Assembly (NCBI RefSeq): GCF_000768335.1
Contig: NZ_AVPT01000012.1
Coordinates: 1 to 64,000 of the forward strand
DNA: 64,000 nt
Direction of reading: 5' to 3'
Origin: Lysobacter arseniciresistens ZS79
GTDB taxonomy: Bacteria; Pseudomonadota; Gammaproteobacteria; Xanthomonadales; Xanthomonadaceae
Positions 19,705 through 21,581 of this stretch are shown here, one piece after another (the first letter of the stretch is position 1; each line of letters starts with the position of its first letter). The notes below the pieces were generated by a model that did no database searches, had not been told where the DNA came from, and saw only the letters and a program-made list of their open reading frames with translations. The translations under genes were made by a program, and so were the position numbers.

Positions 19705-19767
19705 ATGTCGATGTCCCTCAACAACCGCAGCAATAACAACGCCAGCCCTCCGCAGGCCGGCGATTAG
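19705..19767 (+). CDS. Asparagine-rich leader peptide of asnB
   Basis: A 20-codon reading frame (starts MSMSLNNRSNNNAS, ends in TAG at 19765-19767). Five of seven consecutive codons (19720-19740) are Asn (AAC AAC CGC AGC AAT AAC AAC). The peptide precedes an asparagine synthetase gene and is followed by mutually exclusive hairpins, the hallmark of amino-acid operon attenuation. Starts at ATG 19705 or 19711 are both possible; the ribosome-binding site is weak. It has no role as a protein beyond sensing Asn-tRNA supply; this function is inferred. Confidence 0.75.
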   Translation: MSMSLNNRSNNNASPPQAGD

Positions 19768-19794
19768 CACCTAGTACCCGCTCATCGTTCTCCC

Positions 19795-19824
19795 AGGCCT
19801 GCACTGCGAAGTGCGGGCCTTTTT
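19795..19824 (+). terminator. Attenuator terminator upstream of asnB
   Basis: An 11-bp stem (19795-19805 with 19810-19820, one G-U pair) closed by a GCGA tetraloop and followed by a run of five T at 19820-19824. It lies between the leader peptide and asnB, with no gene end that it would otherwise serve. Confidence 0.9.
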
Positions 19825-19886
19825 GTTGCCGCGACGCAGCTGCCGGTGATCCCCACCACCCAACCACCGCATAAGGAAATCCGCAC

Positions 19887-21581
19887 ATGTGTTCGATCCT
19901 CGGCATCTTCGGCCTCGCTCCCGGCGACGACCTTCCACGCCTGCGCCGCGAGGCGCTGGAGCATTCACAGCGACAGCGCCATCGCGGCCCCGACTGGAGC
20001 GGCGTGCACGCCGACGACGGCGCGATCCTCGTCCACGAGCGACTGGCGATTGTTGATCCCGCCGGTGGCGCCCAGCCGATCCGCTCGGCCGACGGCCGGC
20101 TCGTGCTCGCCGTCAACGGCGAGATCTACAACCACCGCGAGCTGCAGGGCGCGCTGGCGCAGCCGTACGACTTCCAGACCGGTTCCGACTGCGAGGTCAT
20201 CAACGCCCTGTACGCGCAGGACGACGACATCGCCGCCTGGCTCGACCGGCTCAACGGCATCTTCGCCTTCGCCCTGTGGGACCGCGAGGGCAGCCGCTAC
20301 CTGATCGCCCGCGACCCGATCGGCGTCTGCCCGCTGTACTGGGGCCACGATGGCAACGGCCGGCTGTGGGTGGCTTCGGAGATGAAGGCGCTGGCCGGCA
20401 CCTGCAGCGACGTCGCCCAGTTCCCGCCCGGTCATTTCTACGACAGCGCGACCGGCCAGCTGCAGCCCTATTACCGGCGGCCGTGGCGTGCGCACGACGC
20501 CACCGCCGGCGTGCAGGTGGCGCCCGATGAGCTGCGCGAGGCGTTCGAGCGTGCCGTGCACCGCCAGATGATGACCGACGTGCCGTACGGCGTGCTGCTG
20601 TCGGGTGGCCTCGACTCGTCGCTGGTCGCCGCCTGCGCCGCACGGTTCGCCCGCCGTCGCATCGAGGAGGACGACCGCGCCGAGGCCTGGTGGCCACGCC
20701 TGCACTCGTTCGCGATCGGCCTGGAAGGCTCGCCGGACCTGGCCGCCGCCGAGGTCGCCGCGCAGGCGCTGGGCACCGTCCACCACGGCTTCACCTACAC
20801 CATCGAGGAGGGGCTGGACGCGCTGCCGGACGTGATCCGCCACGTCGAGACCTACGATGTGACGACGATCCGCGCCTCCACCCCGATGTACCTGCTGGCG
20901 CGGCGGATCAAGGCGATGGGCGTGAAGATGGTGCTGTCGGGCGAGGGCAGCGACGAGATCTTCGGCGGCTACCTGTACTTCCACAAGGCGCCCAACGCGC
21001 GCGAGTTCCATGACGAGCTGGTGCGCAAGCTCGACGCGCTGCACAACTACGACTGCCTGCGCGCCAACAAGTCGATGATGGCGTGGGGCGTGGAGGCGCG
21101 CGTGCCGTTCCTCGACGTCGAGTTCCTCGACGTGGCGATGCGGATGGACGCGAGCGCGAAGATGGTCGGCGTCGGCCCGGACGGCCGCCTGCGGATCGAG
21201 AAGACCGTGCTGCGCGAGGCCTTCGACGGCTACCTGCCGGACTCCATCCTCTGGCGGCAGAAGGAGCAGTTCAGCGACGGCGTCGGCTACGGCTGGATCG
21301 ACTCGCTCAAGGCCCATGCCGGGGCGCACGTCGGCGACCGCGAGTTCGCCGCCGCGGCGAGCCGGTTCCCGGTCAACCCGCCGCAGAGCAAGGAGGCGTA
21401 CTTCTACCGCCGCATCTTCGAGCGGCTGTTCCCCGGCGAGGCCTGCGCGCAGACCGTGCCCGGCGGCAAGTCGATTGCCTGCTCGTCACCGGCGGCGATC
21501 GCGTGGGATGCCGCGTTCGCGAATGCCGCCGATCCGTCGGGCCGGGCGGTTGCGGGGGTGCACCGGGCGGCGCTGGCGTGA
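19887..21581 (+). CDS. asnB: Asparagine synthase (glutamine-hydrolysing)
   Basis: Makes asparagine from aspartate, ATP and glutamine. The 564-residue protein has the N-terminal class-II amidotransferase domain with nucleophile C2 (MCSILGIFG), the glutaminase residues RHRGPDWSG and NGEIYNH, and the synthetase domain with PP-loop SGGLDSS (about residue 240) and SGEGSDEIFGGY. E. coli AsnB has 554 residues. ATG 19887 follows AAGGA. It is transcribed behind the Asn-rich attenuator. No terminator is visible after it; the convergent lipoprotein gene ends 41 bp on. Confidence 0.96.
   Translation: MCSILGIFGLAPGDDLPRLRREALEHSQRQRHRGPDWSGVHADDGAILVHERLAIVDPAGGAQPIRSADGRLVLAVNGEIYNHRELQGALAQPYDFQTGSDCEVINALYAQDDDIAAWLDRLNGIFAFALWDREGSRYLIARDPIGVCPLYWGHDGNGRLWVASEMKALAGTCSDVAQFPPGHFYDSATGQLQPYYRRPWRAHDATAGVQVAPDELREAFERAVHRQMMTDVPYGVLLSGGLDSSLVAACAARFARRRIEEDDRAEAWWPRLHSFAIGLEGSPDLAAAEVAAQALGTVHHGFTYTIEEGLDALPDVIRHVETYDVTTIRASTPMYLLARRIKAMGVKMVLSGEGSDEIFGGYLYFHKAPNAREFHDELVRKLDALHNYDCLRANKSMMAWGVEARVPFLDVEFLDVAMRMDASAKMVGVGPDGRLRIEKTVLREAFDGYLPDSILWRQKEQFSDGVGYGWIDSLKAHAGAHVGDREFAAAASRFPVNPPQSKEAYFYRRIFERLFPGEACAQTVPGGKSIACSSPAAIAWDAAFANAADPSGRAVAGVHRAALA

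Follow-up and report, generated by a model that had tools for sequence, protein, structure and literature searches.

The trp, his, leu, thr, ilv and phe attenuators of Gammaproteobacteria share a short ORF with codons for the cognate amino acid, a series of 1:2, 2:3 and 3:4 helices, and an intrinsic terminator before the structural gene. In the Firmicutes, genes for asparagine carry T-box leaders, which sense the charging of tRNA-Asn by direct binding of the tRNA, act by termination and have no leader peptide. The leader-peptide anatomy is in part laid out in sections of PMC1183508, and the passages on amino-acid specificity in a comparative study of 2013 list His, Leu, Thr, Trp, Ile/Val and Phe, with Asn not among them (PMC3766115). 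According to the description of rnTrpL in PMC7298713, the trpL attenuator leader ORF of Sinorhizobium meliloti stands on an mRNA that begins at its ATG. No leader-peptide attenuator for Asn was found in the open literature; subscription papers lay mostly outside this search, so an earlier report is possible. The relevant passages of PMC6685928 use the phrase ‘Asn codons’ only in the context of mistranslation.

Here, we analyzed the region upstream of asnB in Lysobacter arseniciresistens ZS79, located within the window, i.e., the whole stretch of 64,000 nucleotides under study. The original prediction, made from the sequence of the window, had read this region as an asparagine-sensing ribosomal attenuator.

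Leader ORF, hairpins and proposed switch upstream of asnB

The asnB gene (19887-21581; this and all features below lie on the forward strand) encodes a glutamine-hydrolysing asparagine synthase, the product of which scored 846.9 bits against the equivalog model for asparagine synthase B (NF006949, cut-off 499). It is preceded by AAGGA (19873-19877) as its likely ribosome-binding site, with a similar core present before asnB in 113 of 118 loci. Further upstream, an ORF of 20 codons extends from an ATG at 19705 to a TAG ending at 19767 and would encode MSMSLNNRSNNNASPPQAGD. Five of seven consecutive codons specify Asn (19720-19740), arranged as AAC AAC (19720-19725) and AAT AAC AAC (19732-19740), and AAT accounts for 2 of the 50 Asn codons counted in four window genes. 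The cluster is the only stretch with at least five Asn codons in seven in any of the six frames of the window, which has a G+C content of 70.4%, and none occurred in 100 first-order Markov simulations of the window.

Four segments can be distinguished in the leader. Segment 1 (19740-19747) is able to pair with 19755-19762 to form a 1:2 hairpin; it appears in the fold of the window and in an alignment of 56 sequences, and a thermodynamic test of it did not rise above the null. Segment 2, GCAGGCC (19752-19758), lies within the last codons of the ORF and is exactly complementary to GGCCTGC (19796-19802) in segment 3, the 5' arm of the terminator (AGGCCTGCACT, 19795-19805). Segment 4 (19810-19824) comprises the 3' arm AGTGCGGGCCT (19810-19820) and the U run, resulting in a terminator with an 11-bp stem (19795-19820), the loop GCGA and the tail TTTT (19821-19824). 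The anatomy given by the original prediction, from the 20-codon ORF with its five Asn codons in seven to the GCAGGCC complement, the 11-bp terminator and asnB, thus proved correct to the base. Our analysis adds a likely upstream 1:2 hairpin and a promoter spacing from which a leaderless leader ORF is predicted for the majority of relatives.

A terminator scan of 401 bp returned three terminator-like sites against a mean of 0.2 in shuffled sequence, namely the attenuator hairpin, one nested in the same hairpin and one on the opposite strand, and folding indicated that the terminator of the window is strong on its own. An RNA ending at 19806 folded as the antiterminator (-23.0 kcal/mol, z -1.0), and the complete leader folded as the 1:2 hairpin plus the terminator (-36.6). 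The complementarity of 7 nt is unexceptional by itself, as it was equalled by 27% of synonymous recodings that preserved the peptide of the window and followed the codon usage of four of its genes. Its significance appears to come from the comparative data.

Taking the observed parts, conservation, spacing and covariation of the alternative helices together, the element very probably controls asnB as a ribosome-mediated (leader-peptide) transcription attenuator with charged tRNA-Asn as the sensed signal, and this is our best reading. Its function would depend on ribosome stalling, on a race between the ribosome and RNA polymerase and, ultimately, on a response to asparagine. When Asn-tRNA is ample, the ribosome would clear the Asn codons and halt at the UAG, covering segment 2; segments 3 and 4 would then form the terminator and transcription would end near 19824. 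When Asn-tRNA is scarce, the ribosome would wait on the Asn codons and cover segment 1, segment 2 would pair with segment 3, the terminator could not form and asnB would be transcribed. Without any translation of the leader, segments 3 and 4 would be left free by the 1:2 hairpin, again leading to termination.

The supply of asparagine was assessed in the genome of the window, which is listed as 100% complete. It contains one AsnB at E <= 1e-150 and an AsnRS scoring over the cut-off, and neither AsnA nor GatB was found in it. Asparagine for translation should therefore depend on AsnB or on uptake, which fits direct sensing of Asn-tRNA, and this genome seems to have no means of synthesizing asparagine other than AsnB. 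If the proposed mechanism is borne out, the leader would be a natural reporter of Asn-tRNA charging in such cells.

Distribution of the leader among relatives

The DNA upstream of asnB was compared between 80 named loci (L002-L081) and further loci from genomes of the same family, the two sets overlapping in part. A script identified an Asn-rich short ORF before asnB in 40 of the 44 named loci L002-L045. The script found none at L007, L025, L040 and L044, where asnB is 67-85% identical to that of the window and the records are labeled Holophagales, Rhodococcus, Deltaproteobacteria and Palauibacter; either the bare gene was transferred or the labels are wrong. The leader was also missing in the up to 400 bases searched at each of the 36 remoter loci (L046-L081), where six ORFs with three to four Asn codons in eight were not counted as leaders, and the scores of an RNA model of the leader did not exceed 12.2 bits over the few hundred bases upstream of asnB at these loci.

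Within the family, asnB was detected at E <= 1e-150 in 178 of 198 genomes. The leader was present at all 28 usable family loci of L083-L111 (L087, with 6 bases upstream, was left out) and in 59 of 60 further regions from 59 genomes, 58 of them by script and one, L123, by eye with confirmation by the RNA model at 82.2 bits. Counting each genome once, the DNA upstream of asnB was examined in 89 family genomes, and 87 of these possess the leader. The set of 89 includes the window, the 28 loci, the 59 genomes (one of which, G119, has its region also among the 28) and G040, and covers genomes among those listed down to 71% AsnB identity and, of the weaker ones, G040. The two genomes without the leader are G040 (asnB 63% identical) and G003, for which the script match was false. 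G003 belongs to the genus of the window; it has asnB (L112), and the 450 bases upstream display neither a leader nor a terminator, an apparent loss. The conservation of Asn codons in asnB leaders, proposed as a test of the original prediction, is therefore positive across the lineage.

The 94 distinct leaders contain 5.6 Asn codons on average and at least 3. The rarer codon AAT makes up 233 of the 526 Asn codons in these leaders compared to 71 of 462 in 56 asnB genes from the same loci, which may reflect a tuning of sensitivity or merely a region kept unpaired. A hairpin with a T-rich tail follows 120 of 127 leaders; it was not found by the applied rule in the other seven, three of which still show a G+C-rich hairpin.

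The RNA model was then run on an order sample of 151 genomes and a class sample of 229 genomes. Matches above 41 bits in the order sample were confined to the families f1, f12 and f2, anonymous codes of which f1 and f12 were matched by inference to family names taken from record titles. In f12, a strong match lies just before asnB in 19 of the 20 genomes with asnB, G256 being the one without. This count gives the frequency for f12, as the eight regions read there, part of a hand-chosen set of 40, had been picked from genomes with strong matches. Three matches in f2 stand before asnB, one of them at 40.4 bits. Among the weaker matches read in the order sample, the one at 40.4 bits (L225) is the exception in standing before asnB; the others are ilv leaders, terminator-bearing tRNA genes, three hemD-like loci of f9 and other terminators. 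The three f9 loci (L227, L228, L245) share a conserved stretch, with VRPPTANANTQAP in one frame, and a terminator before an ORF which we take to be hemD-like from its sequence. The best class-sample match outside the order scored 37.1 bits, and those read from this group (L231, L248, L249) are not Asn leaders.

Among 30 upstream regions from the families f5, f7, f9 and f10, a single one (L270) resembles the asnB leaders above in its ORF, hairpin and spacing; L262 and L279, which the script had also flagged, were dismissed on inspection by eye. L270 (G268:C49:28296-28764) belongs to the more distant and A+T-richer f7. Its asnB is 64% identical, and the gene is preceded by MFAIYNTINTTNNRLLRSAGSF and a terminator, with a GCGGG segment located 15 nt upstream of the stop-codon end; the RNA model scores this locus at 30.5 bits. 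The element may accordingly be older, or it may have arisen twice. Beyond the family of the window, the element thus occurs in two other families of the order and in one of nine genomes of another. To judge from these sequences, it is probably a feature of the Lysobacteraceae (Xanthomonadaceae), the Rhodanobacteraceae and some near kin. The taxa covered include Xanthomonas, Stenotrophomonas, Lysobacter, Rhodanobacter and Dyella.

The genomic position of the element also bears on the possibility that the terminated leader mainly yields a small RNA or peptide acting in trans, with the control of asnB being secondary. A trans role is described in the parts of PMC7298713 that deal with the leaderless rnTrpL RNA and the peptide peTrpL of Sinorhizobium. 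However, every match above 41 bits that was read places the element immediately upstream of asnB, and its covarying part is an alternative pairing within the leader itself (see below), so that we give very little credence to this explanation as the main role; a role in trans may exist in addition to control of asnB. The terminated leader RNA may, as a guess, already sit unlabeled in published lists of small RNAs.

Spacing and covariation of the alternative helices

The best-pairing place near the stop was taken as segment 2, which defines its core and register. Of the 94 distinct loci, 75 have segment 2 starting exactly 16 nt upstream of the stop-codon end, 12 have it at 21, 22 or 25 nt and seven at 10, 11, 12, 17 or 37 nt. 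Stop and stem lie 19-37 nt apart in the 120 leaders for which the rule gave a hairpin. This arrangement suggests that the stop codon is placed for a ribosome located there to mask segment 2, as such a ribosome presumably would. All five core pairs of the antiterminator form in 82 of the 94 loci. In leaders of the Xanthomonas type the complementarity is as long as 13 bp, reaching into the terminator loop, and at L006, L088, L094 and L104 the helix is shifted by a few bases, using GGGCCGG.

Covariation was scored in the 56-sequence alignment, which omits four loci with unusual spacing (L017, L022, L030, L155) as well as rows too similar to others. The antiterminator helix 2:3 was paired in 87.4% of cells, compared to at most 43.7% when the strands were slid, and the terminator helix 3:4 in 95.0%. 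The percentage paired, the number of cells with double changes and the covariation score of 2:3 were above those of all 500 shuffles. The counts of changed pairs and of pair types for the 2:3 and 1:2 helices did not exceed those of the shuffles (347 and 488 of 500; 154 and 234 of 500), indicating that the covariation of the antiterminator rests largely on one column pair.

This pair, 19754:19800, is GC in 44 and AU in 12 of the 56 sequences and unpaired in none; at the same columns the wider set of 94 loci has G-C in 79, A-U in 13 and C-C in 2. In 10 of the 12 A-U cases segment 4 keeps its G, leaving a weaker G-U pair in the terminator. As segment 4 mostly stays G, the switch to A-U serves the 2:3 helix and not 3:4. 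On a tree of the asnB protein from the 56 loci, 54 of which were scored, co-changes of the two columns were found in three independent pairs on supported branches and in four on all branches, with none against; three pairs are too few for a sign test (p 0.25). Covariation of 19752-19758 with 19796-19802, which had also been set as a test, was thus detected, mainly at this one column pair. Together with the conserved Asn codons it supports the interpretation as an Asn-sensing ribosomal attenuator, in which asparagine would be the signal.

The 1:2 helix was paired in 81.2% of cells of the alignment versus at most 44.3% when slid, and its covariation score was above all 500 shuffles. In the thermodynamic test, segment 2 was held by upstream sequence before the terminator in 85 of 94 leaders compared to 117 of 153 shuffled ones, which is not clearly above the null, and leaders of the Xanthomonas type prefer a different upstream hairpin. 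The 1:2 hairpin is therefore a likely but not settled part of the element.

Further controls addressed the fit between segment 2 and the terminator. Shuffling the 3' part of the leader gave a median p of 0.025, with 83 of 114 loci below 0.05, and leaders fitted their own terminator with a mean score of 22.0 compared to 17.9 for swapped ones. The control by synonymous codons was weak at individual loci (median p 0.26, with 12 of 114 below 0.05), probably as a result of the constraint that the peptide puts on most bases of segment 2; the combined p of 3e-9 treats related loci as independent. In-register covariation is the better test.

The conserved Asn codons, the conserved spacing and the covariation of the antiterminator, together with the absence of the Asn cluster from the 100 simulated windows, leave almost no probability for the view that the ORF arose by chance and that the hairpin merely ends a transcript coming from upstream or restrains asnB in a fixed manner, even though the terminator is strong on its own. 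The same RNA logic would apply if the Asn-rich peptide itself, or another signal, stalled the ribosome in place of Asn-tRNA charging, making the leader an arrest peptide or a sensor of an antibiotic. The C-terminal residues of the leader peptides are indeed conserved within subgroups. However, the peptides share little except their richness in Asn, their C-termini vary between subgroups in step with the RNA pairing (PQAGD with CCTGC, PRAGD with CCCGC), and the gene downstream makes that very amino acid. Stalling by the peptide or another signal is hence highly unlikely, and sensing of charged tRNA-Asn remains the preferred reading.

Promoter spacing and comparison with known attenuators

Upstream of the leader, the relatives exhibit a hexamer beginning with TTGC and, after a spacer of 17-18 nt, a -10-like hexamer ending 6-7 nt before the leader ATG. 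TTGC occurred at exactly that place in 109 of 118 distinct start contexts, which had been chosen with help of the promoter score, compared to 3.5 on average and at most 25 at shifted positions. Corrected for relatives, the number is 108 of 117, after exclusion of one context in which an upstream TTG had been wrongly taken as the start in the window, and under a neutral rule using the nearest in-frame ATG the placement was found in 92 of 116 relatives. A Shine-Dalgarno core precedes 34 of the 118 leader starts versus the 113 of 118 for asnB, for which the pattern was slightly wider. In 33 of the 118 the -10 box is CAGGAT or CAAGAT, a box that can itself supply a Shine-Dalgarno-like core. On the simplest reading, the transcript of most relatives would begin with the A of the leader ATG or with a neighboring base, making the ORF leaderless.

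The ATG of the window at 19705 does not fit a -10 box at a spacing of 6-7 nt. No recognizable sigma-70 promoter was found in the upstream stretch of the window, and no good ribosome-binding site was seen before its leader ATG. Within the same genus, L083 and L113 are also without the leaderless spacing, and L084, L114, L116 and L117 fit it. We consider it probable that an Asn-specific attenuator is ancestral to the Lysobacteraceae (Xanthomonadaceae) and the Rhodanobacteraceae, and that its sensor ORF is leaderless in the majority of this lineage; a secondary move to another promoter or start would then account for the window and a few congeners. If so, the 5'-terminal AUG would be occupied by a ribosome immediately upon its emergence from RNA polymerase, removing a delay that the attenuation race relies on, and the predicted leaderless arrangement would offer a clean test of how the mode of initiation affects attenuation.

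The same kind of control seems to operate in the lineage beside the asnB attenuator. In six loci from family genomes (L217, L219, L221, L233, L251, L253), a short ORF with a run of Leu, Val and Ile codons, a LITSPTGAGRTGV-like end and a terminator precede a gene which, from its sequence, we take to be ilvC. By the look of them, these are ordinary branched-chain attenuators; they share the short ORF, the G+C-rich end and the terminator with the asnB leader and differ from it in their Leu/Val/Ile codons and in having ilvC as the target. In addition, L229 (G282:C189:300-2100) has a Val/Leu/Ile-rich ORF, VLVLVLIITILVLNGTGSGYV, and a terminator before a presumably ilvD-like ORF.

Compared to the T-box leaders of Firmicutes Asn genes, the asnB element would share tRNA-Asn charging as the signal and termination as the mode of action, whereas it would employ a leader peptide and has no T-box match: T-box models of Rfam gave no match at gathering thresholds, the sole Rfam match of the window being a tRNA gene and 17 relatives having none. 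As in rnTrpL of S. meliloti, an attenuator leader ORF would be placed at the very start of the mRNA, and the account of that RNA in PMC7298713 provides a precedent for a leaderless attenuator ORF; unlike there, where the amino acid is Trp, the host an alphaproteobacterium and the 5' end is stated, the 5' end here is predicted from promoter spacing, for most relatives and not for the window.

The element also resembles the trp, his, leu, thr, ilv and phe attenuators of Gammaproteobacteria, with which it has in common the short ORF of cognate codons, the 2:3 and 3:4 helices, probably the 1:2 helix, and the intrinsic terminator before the structural gene. It differs from them in its specificity for Asn, in asnB as the target, in the lack of a match to Rfam amino-acid leader families (at gathering thresholds, in the window or 17 relatives) and in the leaderless-type promoter predicted in most relatives. 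If borne out, asparagine would join the amino acids sensed by leader-peptide attenuation. On our best reading, the mechanism is classical, and the amino-acid specificity, asparagine, is new.
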